This document shows positions 1,569-16,964 of a stretch of 32,920 bases of DNA, in pieces. Within the stretch, counting starts at the first letter, position 1. The number at the start of each line of letters is the position of its first letter. The DNA comes from Ruminococcus sp. (GTDB taxonomy: Bacteria > Bacillota > Clostridia > Oscillospirales > Ruminococcaceae): assembly GCA_017534595.1 (NCBI GenBank), contig JAFXVY010000083.1:1-32920 (forward strand). Reading direction: 5' to 3'. A program made the translations under genes and the position numbers. The notes beneath the pieces were generated by a model. That model was not told where the DNA came from. It searched no databases and saw only the letters and a list, made by a program, of their open reading frames with translations.

Positions 1569-2741
1569 ATGAAGCTCAGAAAATTCATCGCACTGATAGT
1601 CTCGGGAGCACTGTGTATGGCTCTCGCCGCAGGCTGCGGGTCGTCGGACTCATCCTCCGGCACATCATCAGAGAACGAAAACAAGGAGGAAACTGCTTTG
1701 ACCGATATCCAGAAAATGAAATACATTGGCAGAACATACTATAACGAGGAAAACGACCGCCTCTGGATGGGGCTCTCGGGCTCCGGCTTCTCCTTTGACT
1801 ACACCGGCGACAAGGTCTCAATGTTCATGACCGGCAACCCCGGCGGCAAGACCGACAAGGCCCGCGTCGGCGTGTATGTTGACGGCGAGAGAGTCAAGGA
1901 TCTCCAGATCCCCGCCGACGGAGAGATCATCGAGCTCGACGGCAAGGGCAGCGAGCCGATCAACGTTACCGTGGTCAAGCTCTCGGAATGCGCCATGAGC
2001 TGCTGCGGGCTGATAAAGCTCGAGACAAACGGCGGCACCGTCTCCCCTGCTGCCGACAAGAAGCACCGCATCGAGATCATCGGCGACTCGATCACCTGCG
2101 GCTACGGCGTTGACGACCCGGATATGTCCCATTCCTTCTCCACCGCCACCGAGGACTGCACCAAGAGCTATTCGATCAAGACCGCAAATCTCCTCGACGC
2201 TGATTACAGCCTCGTGTCCTTCTCCGGCTACGGCATAATCTCCGGCTACTCCGGCGACGGCAAGAAGCACGACGATCAGCTCATCCCCACCTACTATGAC
2301 AAGTACGGCTTCACCTATAACTCCGGCTTCGGCGGCAAGAAGCCGCAGGATCTCGAGTGGGACTTCTCCCGCTTCGTGCCGGAGGTAGTCGTTATAAACC
2401 TCGGCACCAACGACGCGAGCTATGCCGCAGGAAATGAGGAAAGAGAGAAGGAGTACGCCGACAGCTACGCAGAGTTCCTGAAGCACGTCCGCGAGAAGAA
2501 CCCCTCCGCCCGCATCTACTGCACTCTCGGCACCATGGGTACCCAGCTCAACGAGAAAATGCACGAAGCAGTCGAGGCCTACACCTCCTCCACCGGCGAC
2601 ACCAACATCGCCGTCGTTGACTTCCCTCTCCAGAACCAGAACGAGGACGGCATTGCCGCAGACTGGCACCCCTCCGATAAGACCCACACCAAATCCGCCG
2701 AACAGCTCGCAGCAGTCATCAAAGCAGACATGGGCTGGTAA
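1569..2741 (+). CDS. SGNH/GDSL esterase lipoprotein, CE2-like carbohydrate acetyl esterase
   Basis: The 390-residue protein begins with a lipoprotein signal peptide (lipobox LAAGC, Cys23) and a Ser-rich linker, so it should be anchored outside the membrane. Residues of about 50-160 resemble the N-terminal beta-sandwich of CE2 esterases. The SGNH hydrolase domain follows, with GDSIT (Ser174), GTND (Asn281) and DWHPS (Asp365, His367). CE2 enzymes remove acetyl groups from xylan or other plant polysaccharides, and that is the probable role; the exact substrate is not visible. AGGAGG before ATG 1569 supports the start. The gene ends about 30 bases before a strong hairpin terminator. Its pairing with tyrA looks accidental in function, but spacing suggests shared transcription. 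Confidence 0.88.
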   Translation: MKLRKFIALIVSGALCMALAAGCGSSDSSSGTSSENENKEETALTDIQKMKYIGRTYYNEENDRLWMGLSGSGFSFDYTGDKVSMFMTGNPGGKTDKARVGVYVDGERVKDLQIPADGEIIELDGKGSEPINVTVVKLSECAMSCCGLIKLETNGGTVSPAADKKHRIEIIGDSITCGYGVDDPDMSHSFSTATEDCTKSYSIKTANLLDADYSLVSFSGYGIISGYSGDGKKHDDQLIPTYYDKYGFTYNSGFGGKKPQDLEWDFSRFVPEVVVINLGTNDASYAAGNEEREKEYADSYAEFLKHVREKNPSARIYCTLGTMGTQLNEKMHEAVEAYTSSTGDTNIAVVDFPLQNQNEDGIAADWHPSDKTHTKSAEQLAAVIKADMGW

Positions 2742-2772
2742 GGCTTTCTGCGATCATCAATACATGAACTGA

Positions 2773-2810
2773 GAAAAGCGCCTGTCCGTTTTTTTGGACA
2801 GGCGCTTTTC
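2773..2810. terminator. Bidirectional intrinsic terminator, island boundary copy 1
   Basis: A perfect 15-bp stem (arms GAAAAGCGCCTGTCC and its complement) encloses a T-rich loop, with A and T runs on both sides, so it can stop the esterase transcript and the convergent XRE transcript. Almost the same hairpin recurs at 4173-4210, on the far side of the AT-rich insert. Confidence 0.88.
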
Positions 2811-2812
2811 GT

Positions 2813-3031
2813 TTATACCAACGGCTTCTTACAGAGACACAGCCCTGCCAGATAATCCAGCGAGACATTGTAATGCTTTGCCAGCACCACAAACAAATGC
2901 ATCGGCATTTCCCGCTTGCCGGATTCGTAGAGCTGATATTGCTGGCGGGTGATATTCAGCAGCTCTGCGACCTGCTGCTGATTAAGGTCGGCATCCTCTC
3001 TTACGTCACGAATTCTCTGATAATAATACAT
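2813..3031 (-). CDS. XRE-family helix-turn-helix repressor
   Basis: This 72-residue protein is essentially one Cro/CI-type helix-turn-helix domain. The motif spans about residues 17-40 (NQQQVAELLNITRQQYQLYE), followed by SGKREMP and the conserved tail VSLDYLAGL. It should bind palindromic DNA as a dimer. GGAGG lies 8-9 bases before the ATG. The gene is divergent from the Ltp lipoprotein gene, and the shared intergenic region carries two near-identical palindromes, one of them inside a promoter spacer. It is therefore probably the repressor of the cassette. The stop codon lies three bases from a terminator shared with the upstream esterase gene. No peptidase, dimerisation or toxin domain is present. 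Confidence 0.88.
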   Translation of the reverse strand: MYYYQRIRDVREDADLNQQQVAELLNITRQQYQLYESGKREMPMHLFVVLAKHYNVSLDYLAGLCLCKKPLV

Positions 3032-3092
3032 AAAATACCTCCAAGTGATTTGTACGTTATGTAGATTTTATCATGAATTCGTATGGATGCAC

Positions 3093-3121
3093 TTGATTGG
3101 CATTCATATAAATGCTATAAT
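3093..3121 (+). promoter_or_regulatory. Sigma-A promoter of the Ltp lipoprotein gene with operator in the spacer
   Basis: TTGATT at 3093-3098 and TATAAT at 3116-3121 are separated by exactly 17 bases. The spacer is filled by the palindrome GCATTCATATAAATGC (3100-3115), so a protein bound there would block RNA polymerase. A second TATAAT at 3183-3188 lacks a good -35 box. Confidence 0.75.
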
Positions 3122-3131
3122 TCTTATATTG

Positions 3132-3147
3132 GCATTCATTTGAATGC
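3132..3147. promoter_or_regulatory. Second operator palindrome
   Basis: GCATTCATTTGAATGC has 7-bp perfect arms around a TT centre. It matches the first palindrome (3100-3115) over TTGGCATTCAT and lies 32 bp from it, about three helical turns, just downstream of the predicted start of transcription. It is the likely second binding site of the XRE repressor. Confidence 0.7.
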
Positions 3148-3222
3148 GGAATCTGTTTTTATAAACTCATTTTCGGTTATGGTATAATAGCATCATCAAA
3201 TTATATTACAGGAGGAATTAAT

Positions 3223-4161
3223 ATGAAAAAAGGTTTATTCATTCTTTTGTCAGCAGCACTATTGTTCGGTTGCAATTCAGAAGACTTATCCACTGCAAAT
3301 GATTCTCATTCTATTTCAAATAAAAATGATTCAGAATCATTTTCTTTTGACAAAGAGAATTACACTAAAGAATTAACTATTGATAATGTCTCATTTTTCT
3401 TCAAAGAAAACACATATGAATCAAGATTAGATAGTAACACAAATTCATCTTCAAGGAATTATGTTTTCCAACTGGATGATGGTTTGATAAACATTATACA
3501 AATCGAATACAAGAGTACAGATCCACGTGTAATATGGCATTTAAAATCAAATGCAGACGCAATAATCGGTAGTTATAATACAGCAAATAGGCAAAACAAA
3601 TGTTTAAATGCAACTGCTGCATTGTACTATGAAGAAGTCTCTTCAAAAGCTAATACTCCATATATTATCTTCAATTCAACAAATTCTATAATATCTGTAT
3701 CCGCAACAACTTTTTCTGATACAGAGAAATCAAAAAATCTTTTATTCTCAACAATTGAACACATGAAAATAGATGGAGAAAGAGTTAGTATCACCGATGT
3801 TTATACAGAAACTGACAATAGTAATTCTATTACTTTAAGCATAACAGAAACGCAAAAGCAGATAGATAGTATTCCTATTGGAAAGCAAAATGCTTTAAAA
3901 TCTGCTATATCATATATTAAGTATCAGGATTTTTCATATAAAGGCTTGATCGAACAACTCAAATATGAAGGTTATGATGATATTGAAGCGATATATGCTG
4001 CTGATAATTGCGGAGCAAATTGGTATGACGAAGCAGCAGATTGCGCTAAAAGCTATTTAAAGTATTCATCTTTTTCAAAACAAGGATTAATTGACCAACT
4101 TGTTTATGAAGGCTTTACGCTTGAACAAGCACAATATGGTGTTAATCAAGCTGGTTACTGA
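3223..4161 (+). CDS. Ltp-repeat surface lipoprotein, possible phage superinfection-exclusion factor
   Basis: The 312-residue protein has a lipoprotein signal peptide (LLFGC, Cys17), a Ser/Asn-rich linker to about residue 45, a unique middle domain (about 48-190), and two C-terminal repeats (about 222-263 and 269-312). The repeats read SAISYIKYQDFSYKGLIEQL and CAKSYLKYSSFSKQGLIDQL, each ending in YEG plus an acidic helix. These match the host-cell-surface-exposed lipoprotein (Ltp) repeat family. In Streptococcus phage TP-J34 the Ltp lipoprotein blocks DNA injection by other phages; many other proteins with this repeat have unknown roles. The gene is strikingly AT-rich compared with its neighbours, which suggests transfer. 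AGGAGG precedes ATG 3223. A defence role is inference from family and context. Confidence 0.82.
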   Translation: MKKGLFILLSAALLFGCNSEDLSTANDSHSISNKNDSESFSFDKENYTKELTIDNVSFFFKENTYESRLDSNTNSSSRNYVFQLDDGLINIIQIEYKSTDPRVIWHLKSNADAIIGSYNTANRQNKCLNATAALYYEEVSSKANTPYIIFNSTNSIISVSATTFSDTEKSKNLLFSTIEHMKIDGERVSITDVYTETDNSNSITLSITETQKQIDSIPIGKQNALKSAISYIKYQDFSYKGLIEQLKYEGYDDIEAIYAADNCGANWYDEAADCAKSYLKYSSFSKQGLIDQLVYEGFTLEQAQYGVNQAGY

Positions 4162-4172
4162 TGAGCATGCAG

Positions 4173-4210
4173 CAAAAGCGCCTGTCCAATTTCTTGGACA
4201 GGCGCTCTCT
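4173..4210. terminator. Bidirectional intrinsic terminator, island boundary copy 2
   Basis: An 11-bp GC-rich stem (AGCGCCTGTCC and its complement) encloses an 8-base loop. Arm and loop layout match the terminator at 2773-2810 almost base for base. It serves the lipoprotein gene and the convergent cellobiose phosphorylase gene. Confidence 0.82.
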
Positions 4211-4233
4211 GTATGCCTGATTGGATTTCGGTA

Positions 4234-6651
4234 TTATCCAAGTACTACCGTAACCTCGGTAACGTCTGTCAGCTTGCACTGGCAGAGGAAGTTGCCTTCA
4301 ACCTTTTCACCGTTGACGGTCATGGACTTGACGCCCGACTGAACGTGATCCGGGTTCTGGATGTCGATCCTGATGCGCTTGCCGCGGAAGGTCTTCTCGA
4401 TCTTGAAGCCGTCCCATGCAGCGGGGATAGCAGGATCTATAACAAGTCCCTCGGCGTTGGGTCTCATACCGCAGATACCCTCAACGCAGCCTACCATAAC
4501 GGTCGAGCCGGTACCGGTCAGCCAGTGAACGTGAGATCTGCCGGCGTAAGGCGAGCGTGTGGACTCGGTGAACTGACCGTGAACGTACGGCTCGAGCACT
4601 CTCTGCTCCGCCTTGTCGTTCATCGAAGCCGGCGAGCTCTCGAGGAAGTACTCAAATGCTCTGTCACCGTGACCGAGCAGCGACTCTGCAAGGATAGCCC
4701 AGCCCTGGGTCTGCGAGAAGATACCGCCGTTCTCCTTGGTGTCGGGATTGAAGATGTGCATGAGCGCACCGCCGAAATAGTGATCTACATAAGGCGGGTC
4801 AAGCAGCTTTACGCCGTAAGGAGTGTTCAGCAGCTCGTGAACGGACTCCATAGCGGTCTCGGCCTGCTCCCTGGAAGCGAAGCCGGAGATCACCGACCAG
4901 CTCTGCGGGTTGAGCCACATCGAAGCCTCGGGATCCTTCTTCGCGCCGACGATCACGCCGTCCTCGCGGATGCCGCGGATAAACCTGTCCTCGTCCCAGC
5001 AGTCGGAAAGCGACTTGCCGAGCTCGGCCTGTGCCTTGTCGAGGTATGCGAGATACTCGGTGTCCTTCTTGTCCTCCGCCCACTTCCTGATAACGCTCAT
5101 AGCATAATAGAGCTGGAAGGCAACGAAAGTGCTCTCGCCCTGCTTGCCCATTCTCAGGCAGTCGTTCCAGTCAGCGTGGAGACCTGCGGGCATCTTGTGA
5201 GCGCCCAGTCTCTCCTGCGAGAAGCGGATAGCGTTCTTCATGTGCTCATAAACGGTGGCGCTCCCGCCGCCCTCCTCGGCATAAACGATCTCCTCGTCGA
5301 GGAATGCGGTGTTGCCGGTCTCGCCGATGTACTTGAGCACCGTCGGGAACAGCCACAGCGCGTCGTCAGCTCTGTAAGAGGGATGACCTGTCTGCTTGGC
5401 GTAAACCGAGTTCTCGTCGTTCTCGTCGGGGCAGGTCTCGTGACCCGCATTGTGGTCGAACTTAACGAGCGGCAGACCTCCGCCGTTGGATACCTGTGCC
5501 GAGAGCATGAAGCGGATCTTCTCAGCCGCAAGCTCGGGGTCGATGTGGATGATGCCCTGGATATCCTGAACGGTGTCGCGGTAGCCGTAGCCGTTTCTCA
5601 GGCCGCAGTAGATGAAGGATGCAGCTCTCGACCAGATGAAGGTGATGAAGCACTGATAAGCGTTCCATACGTTTACCATGTTGTTGAACTCTGCGGAGGG
5701 GGTCTCTACCTTGAAGTTGTCGAGCTTGCCGTGCCAGTAGTCAACGAGCTCCTTAAGCTCGGCGTCTACCTTGCCGGCAGCCTTGTACTCGTCAAGGATA
5801 GCCTTTGCGGTCATGGGATCCTTCTGACCGAGGATGTAGATGATCTCAGCCTCCTCGCCGGGAGCGAGCATAAGATCGCTCTGCAGAGCGCCGCAGGCGT
5901 TGGAGTTGTAGTTCATCTTGTTGTCGCAGAAGCCTCTCTCAACGGCGATAGGATTGGAATAGGTCCTGTAGGAGCCGATGAAGCTCGAAAGGTCTCCGTT
6001 CGCAGCGGATACCGGAGCGCCCACCGCACCGAAAAATCTCTCGCGGTGATTGGAGCCGGTCTCGTCCTTGCCGGAGTTCTCGTTGATGTGCTGAACGATC
6101 ATGTTGCCGTTCTCGAAGCTGGTGCGGGTGATGAACAGGGTGTACTGCAGATTTACCTGATCCTGCTCGTAGTTGTTCTCGTTGGTGAACTCGATGAAGC
6201 CGAACAGCGAAAGGCTGCGGGCATTGTCACCGGTGTTCTTTACCTTAGTCCTCCAGACCTCATAGGTCTTGTTGAGGGGAACGTAATAGGTGACTTCGCT
6301 CTGAACGTTGGAATAGCAAGCCTTTATAGTGGTATAGGCCGTGCCGTGATGACATTCGCTCTTGTAGCGGTCGAGCGGCTTGCCTACCGGCTGCCAGGAT
6401 GCAGACCAGTAATCCTTCTTGTCATTGTCTCTGATGTAGACATATCTGCCGGGCAGAGCCATCATCGAGTTGAAGCGATATCTCGCTATACGGCCGTTGG
6501 CGCCGCTCTTTACAAAGCTGTAGCCCCCCGCATTGTTAGATACGATCGCGCCGTACTCCGGGGAACCGAGGTAGTTTGCCCACGGTGCGGGAGTATCGGG
6601 TCTGGTGATGACGTACTCTTTGTTTTCGAGATCAAAGTAACCGTACTTCAT
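4234..6651 (-). CDS. cbp: Cellobiose phosphorylase, GH94
   Basis: This 805-residue protein has the full length and order of GH94 enzymes: an N-terminal beta-sandwich beginning MKYGYFD, a helical linker, an (alpha/alpha)6 barrel and a C-terminal jelly roll. The general-acid motif HADWND lies near residues 492-497, and the barrel contains GYGYRDTVQD and the phosphate-site region around TGTGSTVMVG. It cleaves cellobiose with phosphate to alpha-glucose 1-phosphate and glucose in the cytoplasm; no signal peptide is present. AAGGAG fits the ATG at 6651 better than an upstream in-frame ATG. It is a single-gene transcript with its own promoter. Other GH94 activities (cellodextrin or chitobiose phosphorylase) are less likely but not excluded by sequence alone. 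Confidence 0.93.
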   Translation of the reverse strand: MKYGYFDLENKEYVITRPDTPAPWANYLGSPEYGAIVSNNAGGYSFVKSGANGRIARYRFNSMMALPGRYVYIRDNDKKDYWSASWQPVGKPLDRYKSECHHGTAYTTIKACYSNVQSEVTYYVPLNKTYEVWRTKVKNTGDNARSLSLFGFIEFTNENNYEQDQVNLQYTLFITRTSFENGNMIVQHINENSGKDETGSNHRERFFGAVGAPVSAANGDLSSFIGSYRTYSNPIAVERGFCDNKMNYNSNACGALQSDLMLAPGEEAEIIYILGQKDPMTAKAILDEYKAAGKVDAELKELVDYWHGKLDNFKVETPSAEFNNMVNVWNAYQCFITFIWSRAASFIYCGLRNGYGYRDTVQDIQGIIHIDPELAAEKIRFMLSAQVSNGGGLPLVKFDHNAGHETCPDENDENSVYAKQTGHPSYRADDALWLFPTVLKYIGETGNTAFLDEEIVYAEEGGGSATVYEHMKNAIRFSQERLGAHKMPAGLHADWNDCLRMGKQGESTFVAFQLYYAMSVIRKWAEDKKDTEYLAYLDKAQAELGKSLSDCWDEDRFIRGIREDGVIVGAKKDPEASMWLNPQSWSVISGFASREQAETAMESVHELLNTPYGVKLLDPPYVDHYFGGALMHIFNPDTKENGGIFSQTQGWAILAESLLGHGDRAFEYFLESSPASMNDKAEQRVLEPYVHGQFTESTRSPYAGRSHVHWLTGTGSTVMVGCVEGICGMRPNAEGLVIDPAIPAAWDGFKIEKTFRGKRIRIDIQNPDHVQSGVKSMTVNGEKVEGNFLCQCKLTDVTEVTVVLG

Positions 6652-6718
6652 ATTATCCTGCTCCTTTTTACATATATTAGGCGGCACAGCGCCTTACTTC
6701 GACTTAACGGTCACTTTC

Positions 6719-6784: not shown

Positions 6785-6990
6785 TTTGCCAAGATAAGCG
6801 AAGCATACCCCGCCTGTCAGGTCTCCGAGCTTTACGCACGCCCCGAAAACAACCGGAAAACAACCCAAAACAACCGAAAACAACCGACAAAAACAACCAA
6901 ACAACCGAAACAACCGAAACAAGCCTAAGTGATAGTGATATTGATAATGTTAGTGACAGTGTTATTGTAAGTGTGAGTGTGAGTGATATA
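6785..6990 (+). other. Low-complexity DNA, possible remnant of a phage-type gene tail
   Basis: Between 6847 and 6921 the unit CAACCGAAA recurs with small changes, followed at 6928-6989 by an AGTGAT-like repeat and a hairpin (GCACGC/GCGTGC). Read in one plus-strand frame the first part gives ENNRKTTQNNRKQPTK-type sequence, and another frame gives a DSDIDNVSDSV-type stretch. Such Lys/Asn/Thr then Asp/Ser/Val linkers are common at the ends of phage DnaD-like replication proteins, but no domain is left and the frames do not join. It may equally be simple-sequence DNA. Confidence 0.25.
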
Positions 6991-7042
6991 CGCGCGCACG
7001 CGAAGCGTGCAAGCCCCCCCTCCCCCGATCCAAACAAAAAAA

Positions 7043-7101
7043 GTCCGCATAGCGGACACCTTCATTCTTCATTATTCATTATTCATTCTTCATTATTCAT
7101 T
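7043..7101. repeat. Hairpin plus TTCATTATTCATT tandem repeat
   Basis: A GTCCGC/GCGGAC hairpin (7043-7057) followed by ACC and a run of TTCATT/ATTCATT units (7061-7101). A hairpin of the same sequence followed by ACACCG and an ATTGTGCATT run occurs at 14137-14190, so this is a recurring composite repeat of the genome. Confidence 0.65.
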
Positions 7102-8189: not shown

Positions 8190-8410
8190 CAGTTTTCCTC
8201 CCCGCTGCGTTTCTTATCCGACAACCTGCGTTGGGACCCGTCGGGCTCGACGATCGTTATGCGGTTGAGCTGTGCGGCAAGGTTCCCGGTCACAGCGGCC
8301 CTGTACTCATTTCTGAGCGCAGTTCGCTCTGACTGTTCCTCCTCCGTAAGCTCCCGCACGCGCGAGATCCTCGTCAGCTCGGACAATCTTTCCAGCTTGT
8401 TTTTCTCCAT
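8189..8410 (-). CDS. DUF896 (YnzC/UPF0291) family protein
   Basis: This 73-residue protein matches the DUF896 family: the pattern LxRLSELTRISRVRELTEEE, then ERTALRNEYRAAVTGNLAAQL and the ending VEPDGS are family hallmarks. The fold is a small helical hairpin of unknown function. In Bacillus subtilis, ynzC lies in the SOS operon with yneA and yneB, which makes the LexA-like boxes upstream here noteworthy. CAGGAG precedes the ATG. It is the first gene of a two-gene operon with the WYL regulator, and its leader is about 190 bases long. Confidence 0.85.
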   Translation of the reverse strand: MEKNKLERLSELTRISRVRELTEEEQSERTALRNEYRAAVTGNLAAQLNRITIVEPDGSQRRLSDKKRSGEEN

Positions 8411-8603
8411 AAATTTTTACTCCTGCCTTCCGGCCAATTCCCGCACACTGAAAGTTTACACAATCTTTCACCGTGCTCCCGCCCGCAGCTTACACAATAC
8501 TGCACGATATCATGCCGAAATTTATATGGACCCAATCTCTTTCTATATATGTTTGTATGGATTTTCAGTCCGTAAAATCTCCCACAATACGTCGGTAATC
8601 CAT

Positions 8604-8632
8604 ATTATAACACACTTTTTCGCAGATTTCAA
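8604..8632 (-). promoter_or_regulatory. Promoter of the DUF896-WYL operon
   Basis: On the minus strand TTGAAA (8627-8632), a 17-base spacer, then TATAAT (8604-8609). The sequence TTACACAA recurs around it at 8456-8464, 8490-8498 and 8673-8680, which could be binding sites for a regulator such as the WYL protein. Confidence 0.78.
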
Positions 8633-8704
8633 CAAGTAAATTGCACAAACTGTCCATTAAAAATCCCTCAAATTACACAAAAAACATTAATTTGACCCTC
8701 CCTA

Positions 8705-8760
8705 TTGACAAATCCGGGGTCTTGGTGTATCCTTGTAGGTGAGGATAGGAACAAACGTTC
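8705..8760 (+). promoter_or_regulatory. Possible SOS promoter with LexA-like box 1
   Basis: TTGACA (8705-8710), 17 bases, then TATCCT (8728-8733) point along the plus strand. GAACaaacGTTC at 8749-8760 matches the Firmicute LexA core GAAC-N4-GTTC and lies at about +10. No gene follows directly; the next plus-strand gene starts at 9104. Confidence 0.5.
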
Positions 8761-8782
8761 TGTACAAAGAAAGTCACAGCGC

Positions 8783-8854
8783 CTTGCCTTTCCCGCCCCG
8801 GAGGCAGGCGCAAAAATTTTACCCATATATGCGAACATTCGTTCGCGTATAGAC
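8783..8854 (+). repeat. 72-bp direct repeat, copy 1, with LexA-like box
   Basis: This unit matches 8972-9043 at all but a few positions. It contains a GC-rich hairpin (with flanking bases GCGCCTTGCCT / AGGCAGGCGC) followed by AAAAATTTT, and the palindrome CGAACATTCGTTCG at 8832-8845, which is close to the LexA consensus. Confidence 0.8.
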
Positions 8855-8932
8855 TCATAGACTCATAGATACTTAGATGCGTAGATGAAGGTGCGCCTCC
8901 GGCGAATATCCCGTCTGCGAAGCAGACGGTTC

Positions 8933-8971
8933 CAAGTATCTAAGTATCTAAGCATCTAAGTATCTAAGCAT
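8933..8971 (+). repeat. Short tandem repeat of the AAGTATCT/AAGCATCT unit
   Basis: An 8-base unit alternating between AAGTATCT and AAGCATCT is repeated about five times. An inverted, degenerate form (AGATACTTAGATGCGTAGATG) lies at about 8867-8887, across a perfect hairpin CCGTCTGC/GCAGACGG. Confidence 0.8.
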
Positions 8972-9043
8972 CTTGCCTTTCCCGCCCCGGAGGCAGGCGC
9001 AAAAATTTCACCCGTGTATGCGAACATTCGTTCGCGTACAGAC
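8972..9043 (+). repeat. 72-bp direct repeat, copy 2, with LexA-like box
   Basis: Second copy of the unit at 8783-8854. CGAACATTCGTTCG is at 9021-9034. The outer bases of the GC hairpin are lost in this copy because the preceding sequence is tandem repeat. Confidence 0.8.
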
Positions 9044-9046
9044 ACT

Positions 9047-9083
9047 TCTAAGTATCTAAGCATCTAAGTATCTAAGCATCTAA
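9047..9083 (+). repeat. Second block of the AAGTATCT/AAGCATCT tandem repeat
   Basis: About four and a half units, ending just before the AGGAGG of the gene at 9104. With the first block it frames direct-repeat copy 2, which suggests that repeat unit and tandem array were duplicated together. Confidence 0.78.
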
Positions 9084-9103
9084 AAGACTAACAGGAGGAC
9101 AAA

Positions 9104-9352
9104 ATGAAAAAGCTTATCGAACAGTACGAAGACGAGATCGGCAGGATCGTTAAGCGTGAGGCTCAGCTCAGAGAGGGGCTTAAAAACCGCAGCTATCCCG
9201 CCGAGGAGGTCAGGAGCGTCGAGAGAAGGCTCGACTTCCTGATCTGCGAGAGATACGACCTTATGCACTCGCTGGCTCTGATGAGAAAGCACTGCGCTCC
9301 CAAGCCGCTTTCCCCGAGTCTTGCCGCAAGGGAGCGTGAGCGCACTTGCTGA
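9104..9352 (+). CDS. Small coiled-coil protein of unknown function
   Basis: This 82-residue protein is almost entirely charged helix, with heptad-like sequence through KLIEQYEDEIGRIVKREAQL and VERRLDFLICERYDLMHSL. I recognise no domain. AGGAGG with ideal spacing supports ATG 9104. Its stop overlaps the start of the sigma-like gene, so the pair is translated together. Small helical proteins next to sigma region 4 proteins are common in prophages and integrated elements, so this may be a domesticated phage-type regulator pair; that is inference. Confidence 0.65.
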   Translation: MKKLIEQYEDEIGRIVKREAQLREGLKNRSYPAEEVRSVERRLDFLICERYDLMHSLALMRKHCAPKPLSPSLAARERERTC

Positions 9353-9678
9353 ATTACGGACGCGGCGGAGACGATGCTTTAAGGCTCGCGGAGCTGCGGC
9401 TCGCTGCGCTGTCTCCGGAGCTTATCGGCTCGCTACTCTGCGAAAGATTGACGAAAAAGCAAAAGTGTTATATAATATTATATTACAGGGACTGCCTCAC
9501 CATGGAGCAGATAGCCTCCCGCTGCGGAGTCAACCGCTCCACCGTCTCGCGCACCATCACCCGCGCCCGCAGACGGCTCTCCGAGGCCATCGAGGCAGAC
9601 TGCATCAGAAAGGCGCTGAAGCTCACCCTCGGCTCCCCCGTGAGCTCGGCTGCCGACACCGGAAGGGATACTTTATGA
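9346..9678 (+). CDS. Sigma-70 region 4-like helix-turn-helix protein
   Basis: The 110-residue protein has a sigma region 4 type motif: LTKKQKCYIILYYRDCLTME followed by QIASRCGVNRSTVSRTI and an Arg-rich recognition end (RARRRLSEAIE). No sigma region 2 is present, so it is not a complete sigma factor; it probably binds DNA as a phage-type positive regulator or YlxM-like accessory protein. The start appears to be TTG 9346, overlapping the previous stop as TTGCTGA; no in-frame ATG exists near it. The last codons overlap the ATG of the yaaO-like gene as ATGA, so all three genes are coupled. Confidence 0.75.
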   Translation: MLNYGRGGDDALRLAELRLAALSPELIGSLLCERLTKKQKCYIILYYRDCLTMEQIASRCGVNRSTVSRTITRARRRLSEAIEADCIRKALKLTLGSPVSSAADTGRDTL

Positions 9679-11000
9679 CTCCGATAATCAGCTTTATTGA
9701 ACAATACAACGCCTCCGGCACCGTAAGGGCTCACATGCCCGGTCACAAGGGCTGTGAGCTCACCGGCTCCGAGAGGTACGATATCACAGAGATCAGAGGC
9801 GCAGACGAGCTTTTCGAGGCGCAGGGCATCATCGCGCAGAGCGAGGCTGCCATGTCCGCGCTCTACGGCTCCGCCCGCACCTGCTACTCGACAGAGGGCT
9901 CATCGCTGTGCATAAAGGCTATGCTCGCCGCTTCACGCGAGCTGCTCGGAGACCTCCGCATAGCCGCGCCCAGGAACTCCCACCGCGCCTTTATAAACGG
10001 CTGCGTGCTGCTCGGCCTCGACCCCGTGACCGTCGCTCCCGAAGCGGAGGTCTGCGAGCCGGTGTCCTCGGCGGTCACTCCCGCTGACGTCCGCCGTACC
10101 CTCGACGCTCACCCGGAGCTCAACGCCCTCTACATCACCTCCCCCGACTACCTCGGCTGTATGGCCGATATCCGGGGGATCTCGGCGGTCTGCCGGGAGA
10201 GGGGCGTGCTGCTGCTCGTCGATAACGCCCACGGCGCTTATCTGCGCTTTGCCGGTGAGGGGCTGCACCCCCTCGAGCTCGGCGCCGATCTCTGCTGCGA
10301 CTCGGCTCACAAGACCCTTCCCGCCCTGACCGGCGCCGCCCTGCTGCACGTTTCAAGATCCGCGCCGCAGGAGCTCTGCTCCCTTGTCAAGGACGCCATG
10401 CAGCTGTTTGCGTCCACCAGCCCGAGCTATGTCATACTCTCGAGCCTCGACCGCCTCACCGCCGAGCTGGCAGGCGAGCTGCCGGAGCGCATCCGTGAAT
10501 GCTGCGGGCGTATCGCCGAGATCAAATCGCGCCTGCGCTCACGCGGGTTCGTCATTCCCGGGGAGGAGCCGATGAAGCTCACCGTCAATGCCCGCCCCCT
10601 CGGGTACACAGGCTCCGGGCTCGGAGACTTTCTGCGCACACACGGCATCGAGCCGGAATACACCAGCGAGGGCTGCGCCGTGCTTATGCTCTCGCCTTAC
10701 AACACCCCCGCAGAGCTTGAGGCAACGGAGGCTGCTCTGACCGCCCTGCCGGCGCGTACAGCGCTTTCTCCCCTGCCGCCCCTGCCGGGTATGCCCCGCC
10801 GTGCGATGAGCCTCAGAGAGGCATATTTCGCCCCTCACGAGCGTGTCCCCATCGACGAGGCCGAAGGACGTATATGCTCCCGCACCCTGCTCTCCGGCTG
10901 CCCCTCGGTGCCGGTCATCCTCGGCGGAGAGATATTTGACCGCGAAACGATATTTTTTTTGAAAAAGTATAGCTTTTTTTCCGCAGATGTGATAAAATAG
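9675..11000 (+). CDS. Orn/Lys/Arg decarboxylase-family PLP enzyme, YaaO-like
   Basis: The 441-residue protein is a fold-type I PLP enzyme of the short ornithine/lysine/arginine decarboxylase group. It opens with HMPGHKG (residues about 20-26), has the cofactor region STEGSS (72-77), LLVDNAHGAYL (180-190), and the Schiff-base lysine in DSAHKTLP (Lys213), with the typical end PSVPVILGGEIF. In Bacillus the yaaO gene lies just ahead of tmk, yaaQ, yaaR, holB and yaaT, and the same order minus tmk and yaaR is seen here. The substrate is not visible; arginine or lysine are likely. Start ATG 9675 overlaps the upstream stop. The stop is eight bases before the inverted-repeat element. Confidence 0.85.
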   Translation: MTPIISFIEQYNASGTVRAHMPGHKGCELTGSERYDITEIRGADELFEAQGIIAQSEAAMSALYGSARTCYSTEGSSLCIKAMLAASRELLGDLRIAAPRNSHRAFINGCVLLGLDPVTVAPEAEVCEPVSSAVTPADVRRTLDAHPELNALYITSPDYLGCMADIRGISAVCRERGVLLLVDNAHGAYLRFAGEGLHPLELGADLCCDSAHKTLPALTGAALLHVSRSAPQELCSLVKDAMQLFASTSPSYVILSSLDRLTAELAGELPERIRECCGRIAEIKSRLRSRGFVIPGEEPMKLTVNARPLGYTGSGLGDFLRTHGIEPEYTSEGCAVLMLSPYNTPAELEATEAALTALPARTALSPLPPLPGMPRRAMSLREAYFAPHERVPIDEAEGRICSRTLLSGCPSVPVILGGEIFDRETIFFLKKYSFFSADVIK

Positions 11001-11007
11001 ACATATA

Positions 11008-11218
11008 GGCAACACCGCACGACCCGCGGCTAACGCCTCTGCACGCCATCTGCTTGCCAGCTTTCCGTCATATCACCCAAATTCTCCTTGACGTTGCGTA
11101 AAGCGAAGTGAACTTCGCTTGCAAGCCTGCGTCGAATTCGGGCAATCTGACGAAAATCTCAGCTCAACTTTATTGAGCTTGCGCGCGATCTGACGCACAG
11201 GGGTCGTGCGGTGTTGCC
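11008..11218. mobile_element. MITE-like element, complete copy 2 (211 bp)
   Basis: The element starts GGCAACACCGCACGACCC and ends with the exact inverse, giving 18-bp terminal inverted repeats. TATA lies on both sides (11004-11007 and 11219-11222), consistent with a 4-bp target duplication or a TA-rich target. Inside are two hairpins, AAGCGAAGT/ACTTCGCTT at 11101-11120 and AGCTCAA/TTGAGCT at 11161-11179. It encodes no protein. It is homologous, in opposite orientation, to 1-166. It splits the yaaO-like gene from the pstA-holB block. Confidence 0.85.
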
Positions 11219-11279
11219 TATACTTTGTGCGAAGCCGACACTTTTGCTCGCGCGATCAACAATTCATCATCTTCGGGGG

Positions 11280-11813
11280 GTGAGGGCTACGGGAGTAGAA
11301 CGTTTCCGCCATCTTGTCGGCTGGCAAAGGCTCTGCGAGCCGGTGCCGGGGTATTTTGTGTATTTCGTGATGCCCTGCTATATGAGCTGGTTCCCGCCGA
11401 GGCTCACAAACGGCCCCGAGCGCCACAAGCAGAGGCTCTGGCTCCAGGAGCATCCCTATCCTGCGGAGCTCACCGCCTTCGGCAAGCCTGTCGAGAAGGT
11501 GGTATTCACCACTCAGCATTATCTGAAATACGATCAGAAGCTCATAGAGGGCAGGTTCATGCCCTCGGCGCTCGAAGCCCTCAGGCTCATTGAGGAGCAC
11601 GCGCAGGAGCTTCCCGCGATCATAAGCCGGGAGACTCTCGGCGACTACGACAGCGTCATCTCGCTGAGAAGGCTCGAGATAATTCTGTTCGAGGACTCTC
11701 CCCGCTGGACCTATCATATCCGGTTCGCCGGGGACGACTCCGACTGCCTGCGCATCCTCTGTATGGACGGGCGGTTCGTGATGTGCAATCTTTCCAAGCC
11801 GGACAAGTACTGA
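11280..11813 (+). CDS. Protein of unknown function
   Basis: The reading frame from 11211 to 11813 codes for a protein that I do not recognise. The C-terminal 130 residues look real, with normal codon use and the stretches FGKPVEKVVFTTQHYLKYDQ, SVISLRRLEIILFEDSP and RFAGDDSDCLRILCMDGRF. The N-terminus is unclear: GTG 11280 and ATG 11370 are possible starts but neither has a clear ribosome binding site, and the frame runs back into the repeat element. The element may have removed the original start region. It ends 15 bases before pstA and probably shares its transcript. It occupies the place where tmk is found in Bacillus but shows no P-loop, so it is not thymidylate kinase. Confidence 0.55.
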   Translation: MRATGVERFRHLVGWQRLCEPVPGYFVYFVMPCYMSWFPPRLTNGPERHKQRLWLQEHPYPAELTAFGKPVEKVVFTTQHYLKYDQKLIEGRFMPSALEALRLIEEHAQELPAIISRETLGDYDSVISLRRLEIILFEDSPRWTYHIRFAGDDSDCLRILCMDGRFVMCNLSKPDKY

Positions 11814-11828
11814 ATCAGGAGGTTCATT

Positions 11829-12152
11829 ATGAAGCTTGTATATGCGATAGTAAACGACGACGACACCTATGCCGTCACCAAGGCCATGCAGAAAAAGGGC
11901 ATCAGAGCCACAAAGCTTGCGTCCACCGGCGGCTTCCTCTCAAGGGGGAACACCACCTTCATGATCTGCTGCAGGGACGAGCAGGTGGATGAGATAATCT
12001 CTGTCTGCAAGGAGCATTCCCGCAAGCGCAGACAGGTCGTGCTCTCCACCGAGATAAACGAGGGCATGATCTCCGACCCGGAGCCGGTAGAGGTAAACAT
12101 CGGCGGCGCGACGATCTTCGTCACCGATATCGAGAGGTTCGAGCAGGTCTGA
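11829..12152 (+). CDS. pstA: Cyclic-di-AMP receptor PstA/DarA (DUF970)
   Basis: The 107-residue protein is a PII-like member of the DUF970 family that binds cyclic di-AMP as a trimer in the cytoplasm. Family features are the opening MKLVYAIVNDDDTYAV, the LASTGGFLSRGNTTFMICC core at about residues 30-48, and VNIGGATIFVTDIERFEQ at the end. In B. subtilis the gene is yaaQ, in the same place before holB and yaaT. AGGAGG precedes ATG 11829, and only one base separates it from holB. Its downstream partner is not known in this family, so its effect on the cell cannot be stated. Confidence 0.93.
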   Translation: MKLVYAIVNDDDTYAVTKAMQKKGIRATKLASTGGFLSRGNTTFMICCRDEQVDEIISVCKEHSRKRRQVVLSTEINEGMISDPEPVEVNIGGATIFVTDIERFEQV

Positions 12153-16154: not shown

Positions 16155-16229
16155 GTTATTAAGAATTAGAGTTGATATTTGGGTAAATATTATAGAATTA
16201 TGATAACTGCAATGAAAAGGGATGATAGT

Positions 16230-16964
16230 ATGAAAACTAAGAAAAACCAAAAGGGCTTTACGCTCATCGAACTGATCACGGTAATAATGATCATCGGCAT
16301 CCTGGCAACGATACTTGTTCCGGCGGTCATGAACTACGCCAAGAAGGCAAGGATCACGGCAGCCATAGCGGACACCAAGGTCGTAAGATCGGCGATCGAA
16401 TCCTCGCTGATAAATCATCTTACCGAGAAGAACGCGTCCAACGCCTTCAACAAGGTGCTCTACCTTGACCAGAACCCGGACAAGAACAAGAGAGACTACG
16501 AGGTAGTCGGCGTTTTCACCAATGTAAGCTGGGTCATCTACAGAACCAATGAGGGCGGCAAGCAGGGCGCGTCGCAGGAAGTTGACAGAGTTATCGCGAG
16601 CGCGATCGACAACGCATTCACCGAGAACTGGGAGACGGGTCTGAAAAAGAACCCGATGGCCTACCACACGAACAGTGACAACTGTGAGAAATTCATACAG
16701 GATCAGAAGACCAATTTCGGGCTTGTGGTCGTATACAACAGGACAGGAAGCATCCGCATGATGCAGCTTTACAGAAAGGGCATACTTGTTACCTACCTCA
16801 AGGGTGACTACATAGTTAACACCAATGACACTGCACACTTTGTCGGTGAAGGAGTTTGGAGCACGATCTACTCTGACAGCGGCGAGGAAGCTCCGCAGGA
16901 ATACAGCCAGATCAATCTTGCCAACGGACAGCTCAAGAACGGCAAGCTCAATCGCTGGTACTGA
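16230..16964 (+). CDS. Type IV pilin-like / pseudopilin protein
   Basis: The 244-residue precursor has a class III (prepilin) leader: basic MKTKKNQKG followed by FTLIELI and a hydrophobic helix to about residue 33. Prepilin peptidase should cut after Gly9. The rest is a soluble domain with no family that I can name, larger than a usual major pilin. Ruminococcus albus uses type IV-like pilins in adhesion to cellulose, so a surface adhesion role is plausible. No pilus assembly ATPase, peptidase or other pilin gene is nearby. AAAAGGGA supports ATG 16230. It is a single-gene unit with its own strong promoter and terminator. Confidence 0.85.
   Translation: MKTKKNQKGFTLIELITVIMIIGILATILVPAVMNYAKKARITAAIADTKVVRSAIESSLINHLTEKNASNAFNKVLYLDQNPDKNKRDYEVVGVFTNVSWVIYRTNEGGKQGASQEVDRVIASAIDNAFTENWETGLKKNPMAYHTNSDNCEKFIQDQKTNFGLVVVYNRTGSIRMMQLYRKGILVTYLKGDYIVNTNDTAHFVGEGVWSTIYSDSGEEAPQEYSQINLANGQLKNGKLNRWY

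Follow-up and report, generated by a model that had tools for sequence, protein, structure and literature searches.

A candidate repressor switch with exchangeable cargo, carrying an Ltp-family lipoprotein gene, beside GH94 in Ruminococcus

We analysed a 32,920-nt stretch of a Ruminococcus sp. genome (the window), in which a gene for an XRE-type repressor is divergent to a gene (ltp) for a lipoprotein with Ltp repeats and lies close to a GH94 family gene. The best explanation of this locus, to which we give a probability of about 0.6, is a repressor switch that stays fixed while the cargo gene it controls is exchanged. We infer a mechanism of binding, repression, export and phage exclusion. 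XRE, which has 72 aa and no sensor domain, would bind, as a dimer, three 16-bp palindromes: the first next to its own -10, the second in the -35/-10 spacer of the cargo promoter, and the third just downstream. Bound XRE would keep both promoters low until a signal relieves repression. The switch and GH94 would stay in place while different species receive different cargo behind the promoter, and the GH94-linked cargo would mostly be membrane-anchored or exported proteins. In this genome the predicted cargo is an Ltp-family lipoprotein, lipid-anchored outside the membrane, whose two acidic Ltp repeats would most likely stop an incoming tailed phage from passing its DNA into the cell by binding its tape measure protein, as is reported for TP-J34 Ltp. 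The protein family, the repeat fold, the fixed position of the switch, the turnover of cargo, and the co-variation of repressor and operator were computed here.

Features of the locus:
left of the left hairpin, plus strand: GDSL esterase gene (neighbour)
2773..2810, no strand: left hairpin, between the GDSL esterase (+) and XRE (-) genes; terminator-like by position
2813..3031, minus strand: XRE repressor gene; 72 aa, helix-turn-helix only (HTH_3, E 2.5e-12)
3065..3070, minus strand: probable -10 of the XRE gene, TAAAAT with TG in front (by eye; absent from the promoter scan)
3075..3090, no strand: predicted operator 1, GAATTCGTATGGATGC, beside the XRE -10
3093..3121, plus strand: predicted ltp promoter, TTGATT - 17 nt - TATAAT; 10/12 consensus matches
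3100..3115, no strand: predicted operator 2, GCATTCATATAAATGC, inside the -35/-10 spacer of the ltp promoter
3132..3147, no strand: predicted operator 3, GCATTCATTTGAATGC, downstream of the ltp -10
3223..4161, plus strand: Ltp-family lipoprotein gene; 312 aa, with predicted signal peptide, orphan middle domain, and two Ltp repeats (about 217-312)
4174..4206, no strand: right hairpin, between ltp (+) and GH94 (-)
4234..6687, minus strand: GH94 family gene (PF17167, E 2.7e-133), which marks the slot in relatives

The repressor gene beside GH94 and the genes opposite it

Both open reading frames of the divergent pair described in the first-pass annotation, 2813-3031 (-) and 3223-4161 (+), are present. 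The block at 2773-4210 has a GC content of 34.3%, versus 55.3% for the whole window; the A+T richness earlier ascribed to all of it sits in ltp (GC 30.6%) and the intergenic region (28.8%) and does not extend to the XRE gene (47.9%). The neighbours are GDSL esterase, prephenate dehydrogenase, GH94, and WYL genes. No integrase gene of the kind that marks a prophage lysogeny module adjoins the pair, which agrees with its description as stand-alone, and no phage genes were recognised by eye among window ORFs of at least 130 aa from position 8500 onward. The window also contains a single gene with a type IV pilin N-terminal methylation motif (16227-16964; PF07963, E 6.6e-9) and short tandem repeats with units of 7-31 bp (6843-7101 and 8934-9083).

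In 14 of the 15 other genus genomes the best GH94 match is 78-93% identical; in the fifteenth it is 37% identical. XRE lies beside GH94 on one contig in two of these 15, G006 (92% identical) and G001 (83%). The order in G006 is GH94, hairpins, a gene for a 198-aa SHOCT membrane protein, XRE, and a hairpin; G001 has, in sequence, GH94, a gene that looks ATPase-like by eye, a gene for a 183-aa SHOCT membrane protein, and XRE. G003 and G014 also have an XRE gene (76-80% identical), separated from GH94 or at the end of a contig. When genome contigs were scanned with five XRE orthologues, 82 relatives turned up and 80 loci were returned; several of the genomes recur among these (for example, locus L185 is that of G006). 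GH94, cargo, and XRE lie within 4 kb at no fewer than 12 of the 80, as contigs that end earlier could hide others; XRE at these 12 is 66-92% identical to ours, giving 13 loci with the window. Distances for GH94 and XRE agree weakly across 12 loci (r 0.26, with 53 of 2000 permutations at or above), and without the three loci that have tandem XRE genes the remaining nine give r 0.08 (682 of 2000); synteny is therefore the basis for assigning the pair a common descent.

The window's own genome has two XRE paralogues, 45 and 41% identical. One (L137, G000:C41) is divergent to a gene for a 341-aa lipoprotein-like protein (GC 0.36) and the other (L138, G000:C61) to a gene for a 220-aa SHOCT membrane protein (GC 0.41); by eye, both pairs have palindromes of their own in the promoter region. 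The genome may run several such slots in parallel, with at least two further XRE-envelope pairs.

Between G006 and the window, XRE is identical at 187 of 219 nt, the first 45 nt upstream at 45 of 45, and the operator/promoter stretch at 42 of 55. Identity is 61% at 100-190 nt upstream of XRE and falls beyond about 190 nt to 50-56%, versus a mean of 55% and a maximum of 58% in 30 shuffles. Homology falls off in much the same way in G001, G323, G291, and L186. Since upstream identity is kept and the cargo is at the shuffled level, the cargo has been replaced behind a retained promoter: the divergent gene alone changes between species. From this between-species comparison we are fairly confident that the cargo is exchangeable.

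Cargo at the other GH94-linked loci:
L185 and L192: SHOCT membrane proteins (accepted Pfam matches)
L187, L188, and L195: membrane proteins with zinc-ribbon-like cysteine pairs (by eye), with no accepted Pfam match
L189 and L219: a 67-69 aa protein with two CxxC pairs, followed in L219 by an acidic lipoprotein-like protein
L193 and L196: lipoprotein-like proteins
L210, L226, and L245: tandem XRE genes beside GH94 and a 46-60 aa protein, Phd-type-antitoxin-like by eye (that of L226 was seen in one listing and was not recovered in the cargo comparison)

Five pairs were related at E < 0.01 in a BLASTP comparison of 14 GH94-linked cargo proteins, and the window's Ltp had no relative among them; nor did the flanks (up to 4 kb) of the 80 XRE loci yield an Ltp match. 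The cargo genes have a GC of 0.29-0.45, lower than that of their own locus in every case listed. Automated typing of 41 cargo genes at 46 operator loci gave 25 soluble, 13 membrane or secreted, and 3 lipoprotein, with the window's own lipoprotein misfiled as soluble. XRE loci elsewhere in the family have fn3, dockerin, or BspA-type proteins (cargo picked by script). The same XRE/operator type was also observed with a conserved soluble family of about 88 aa in several Clostridia RGIG MAGs of another clade (L202-L253); this family accounts for much of the cargo typed as soluble, and the term envelope cargo is therefore limited to Ruminococcus loci, above all the GH94-linked ones.

More broadly, we lean slightly towards the view that the chromosomes of Ruminococcus and related Clostridia maintain an expression slot, consisting of an HTH-only repressor and a promoter with an operator as its spacer, in which unrelated, mostly envelope genes would be exchanged and immediately repressed; phage-exclusion proteins would be one kind of occupant. 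If true, this would account for the ability of gut bacteria to acquire surface genes, including those for phage-exclusion proteins, without paying for uncontrolled expression. The repressor-operator pair could serve as a search handle for envelope proteins with no sequence similarity to one another, and these may include phage-exclusion factors that have gone unrecognised.

Predicted operators and their co-variation with the repressor

The earlier description of the pair as regulated gains from the intergenic promoter, which looks XRE-controlled, with operators predicted from sequence in the ltp promoter. All three 16-bp palindromic sites resemble GCATTCnnnnGAATGC, and the position of operator 1, 43 nt upstream of XRE, is kept in many relatives. 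The promoter scan overall was not above chance (8 sites vs 7.4), so the weight for the ltp promoter comes from conservation. An operator (at least 10/12) was found in the first 200 nt at 49 of 80 loci, versus a mean of 0.9 and a maximum of 5 in 200 resampled sets, and a site scoring at least 9 fills the promoter spacer in 45 of 80. The combined pattern TTGnnnnRCATTYnnnnRAATGYTATAAT occurs at 10 places in 9 of 396 family genomes (0 for the reversed-pattern control among matches listed), eight of them directly upstream of a window-type (P0002-type) XRE. The other two, G371:C1:19745-19773 and G363:C43:18120-18148, are not beside a listed XRE of this type. A loose operator pattern occurs at four places in the window's own genome, two of them in the block (control, 1), and the regulator therefore looks to act locally. 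By eye, a second promoter-like sequence, TGGTATAAT at 3180-3188, lies between operator 3 and the ltp start; it could allow ltp expression outside XRE control.

Repressor and operator were compared across loci with operators called blind to the motif, as any palindrome filling the TTG-TATAAT spacer, to avoid circularity. Six of 81 loci, three of them GH94-linked, were dropped (match not at the start codon, or a stop in frame), leaving 75 usable loci including the window, and an operator was called in 52 of these. Where base 1 is G in both half-sites (37 loci), XRE residue 29 is always R; Q is paired with A (5/5), Y with C (2/2), and P with A (one locus), and at six loci with T or S, base 1 is T, A, or C. 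All 45 loci with C at base 2 have Q at residue 30, and six of the seven with T have P. A single locus, L221 (R, Q, and a poor palindrome), goes against both rules. By mutual information, XRE columns 29 and 30 rank top for bases 1 and 2, respectively; column 19 is a close second for base 1 (1.18 vs 1.23 for column 29), perhaps through kinship. On a tree of 56 residues, built without columns 28-31 and bearing no support values, base 1 changes eight times and residue 29 seven, base 2 five times and residue 30 four; with such repeated changes, the co-variation is not one event. Judged by co-variation over the 52 loci, the operators in the target promoter appear to fit the recognition helix. We predict with high confidence that XRE binds these sites and works as a switch.

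The Ltp-family lipoprotein and its possible role

The search with PF07553 matched the lipoprotein in two stretches (E 4.5e-26), bearing out the two Ltp repeats of the first-pass annotation; these helix-turn-helix repeats place the protein in the Ltp family and have the fold of TP-J34 Ltp (structure 4eqq). The predicted signal peptide MKKGLFILLSAALLFGC has a putative lipobox, LFGC (by eye), and Pfam LPAM_1 scores 12.2 bits (E 0.28) vs a cut-off of 20. The middle domain is unique at the sequence level, as had been claimed: a search of 394 genomes of the order gave only itself at E <= 1e-3. The repeats are acidic (pI 4.47, net charge -5 over 96 residues). For TP-J34 Ltp, PMC3952083 attributes exclusion to the repeat domains, which target the tape measure protein via negative charges, and the acidic repeats of the window's protein thus lend support to exclusion by homology. 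Its two best PHROG matches are named superinfection exclusion. PADLOC-DB 2.0.0 returned 0 families at E <= 1 for the lipoprotein and 12 for XRE (for example HTH_VI, RmrA, capH, and control protein). By analogy with TP-J34, we put phage exclusion by the window's Ltp at even odds.

The slot may instead carry surface proteins for gut or rumen ecology, the Ltp repeats being a binding module without an anti-phage role. This alternative competes with the last step of the mechanism only, and we regard it as possible, at somewhat less than even odds. GH94-linked occupants that bear no phage label, such as SHOCT membrane proteins and lipoproteins, would fit it, as would the fn3, dockerin, and BspA-type cargo elsewhere in the family. 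Pneumococcal CbpL is described as having an Ltp domain and a role in infection, and is proposed to bind another protein or a component of the cell wall (PMC5137146). The PHROG names and the TP-J34 fold of the repeats point the other way.

It is also conceivable, if rather unlikely, that ltp originated in a prophage lysogeny module, was transferred to an XRE-controlled slot already present in the chromosome, and kept its exclusion role, a history compatible with the fixed switch. Lipoprotein relatives were found at E <= 1e-6 in 23 of 396 family genomes and at E <= 1e-5 in 2 of 16 genus genomes, own genome included in both; the other genus genome, G003, matches in the repeats only, and not beside GH94. 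Genomic contexts were drawn for 20 of 23 homologues other than the window's (G074, G089, and G273 were left out; in L090 the Ltp gene was not called by the script, and context genes were identified by eye). The presence of a recombinase gene near ltp in six contexts (L073, L074, L076, L077, L083, and L084), with an XRE gene also nearby in four of the six, would suit a prophage origin; the remaining contexts are mostly ordinary genes. Phage records matched the lipoprotein in 134 cases at E <= 1e-3, and at least three (L303, L305, and L316) of 20 viral proteins (19 from 80 viral loci, plus L093) share its layout of signal peptide, middle region, and Ltp repeats. Against such an origin, none of the 134 records covers 80% of the query in one place, and the search of the order sample gave no sequence relatives of the middle domain. 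By eye, N-terminal anchors joined to Ltp repeats elsewhere include lipoprotein-like signals, a zinc ribbon with a membrane helix, and cell-wall-type repeats. At L079 (G377, 8393-12139), a P0002-like XRE gene (E 1.1e-22) and a gene for an Ltp protein with cell-wall-type repeats are about 2.2 kb apart.

Flanking hairpins and comparison with known systems

The near-identical hairpins reported on both sides of the block match at 91% over 33 nt as a direct repeat; that they are terminators is suggested by their position. The left hairpin has a perfect 15-bp stem (-30.2 / -29.2 kcal/mol), and folding energies are -28 to -32 kcal/mol, with z of -6.7 to -10.8. In the 2.88-Mb draft genome (93% complete), the exact 10-bp stem enclosing a loop of 3-12 is limited to these two places. 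The terminator scan listed nothing at 2700-4300, because the T run pairs inside the stem. The right hairpin travels with GH94: it lies 3' of GH94 in G005 (same loop) and G006 (nearly the same loop), and after GH94 in shortened or altered form in G001, G004, and G011, a total of five of the 13 relatives shown. G006 also has a similar hairpin 3' of XRE and more copies inside larger repeats. At L125 (G006, 4154-5402), four related hairpins and repeated stretches flank XRE and cargo; the repeats in G006 are 38, 73, and 56 nt in register and include the 3' end of a SHOCT gene. Same-stem hairpins on both flanks occur at two of 12 GH94-linked loci, the window and G006/L185, a sister species with other cargo; the check covered the window and 11 of the 12 other loci, L193 being omitted for its partial GH94. 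The hairpins may have been duplicated in the common ancestor of the window species and G006. They do not bound a unit that arrived with ltp.

A mobile phage-exclusion cassette, in which XRE and ltp arrived together and left duplicated hairpins at both ends, is improbable. It would account for a direct repeat with only two copies in the genome, for the A+T richness of ltp, for an Ltp match in so few genus genomes (in G003, repeats only and away from GH94), and for XRE and recombinase genes near ltp elsewhere. It is contradicted for XRE and the right hairpin, both of which, like the promoter, are present in relatives with other cargo. The XRE gene is not A+T-rich, and a pattern scan of viral contigs gave three distant XRE relatives only (33-44%). 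The suggestion that 2773-4210 is one acquired block, with the hairpins as recombining ends, is not supported: XRE, the promoter, and the right hairpin are found in relatives without ltp, where the hairpin stays after GH94, and in the relatives compared the whole block is not present or absent as a unit. A toxin-antitoxin-like pair, with XRE as antitoxin and the cargo as membrane toxin, is very improbable: XRE scores against several antitoxin models and three GH94-linked loci have tandem XRE genes with a Phd-type-like protein (by eye), but all NCBIfam matches, whether to antitoxin models or to RstR (47.6 bits vs 80), are below cut-off, the genes are divergent rather than co-transcribed, and the cargo is mostly mutually unrelated while XRE is constant.

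The fixed switch and its cargo resemble several known systems in part. Like Ltp of the Streptococcus thermophilus phage TP-J34, the window's lipoprotein has PF07553 repeats with the same fold; TP-J34 ltp is given as 142 aa in PMC3952083, versus 312 aa here with an orphan middle domain, and the window's gene is chromosomal, beside GH94, and without an integrase alongside, its activity being predicted. In the TP-J34 lysogeny module, as tabulated in PMC3952083, ltp lies between integrase and metalloproteinase genes. The window's Ltp gene is likewise near a repressor-type gene; unlike in lysogeny modules, that repressor is a 72-aa XRE without a further domain, is fixed beside GH94, and faces many other cargo genes, with no Ltp match at the 80 other XRE loci. 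The nearest solved relative of XRE is the ICEBs1 XRE regulator (7t8i), which shares the HTH fold over residues 5-63 (E 1.1e-5); it serves a mobile element, and no such element was seen at the window locus.

The 434 repressor uses the same two recognition-helix positions to read operator bases 1 and 2. XRE is similar in that residues 29 and 30, at the start of the recognition helix, co-vary with bases 1 and 2, and its pairings of Q with A and Q with C match those of Gln28 and Gln29 in 434; it differs in its operator, GCATTCnnnnGAATGC, in R29, and in the lack of a C-terminal domain in this genome's XRE. Defence and cargo hotspots combine conserved neighbours with variable content, as does the slot described here. 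Unlike such hotspots, the slot also keeps its regulator, promoter, and operators, and new cargo would therefore be controlled at once.
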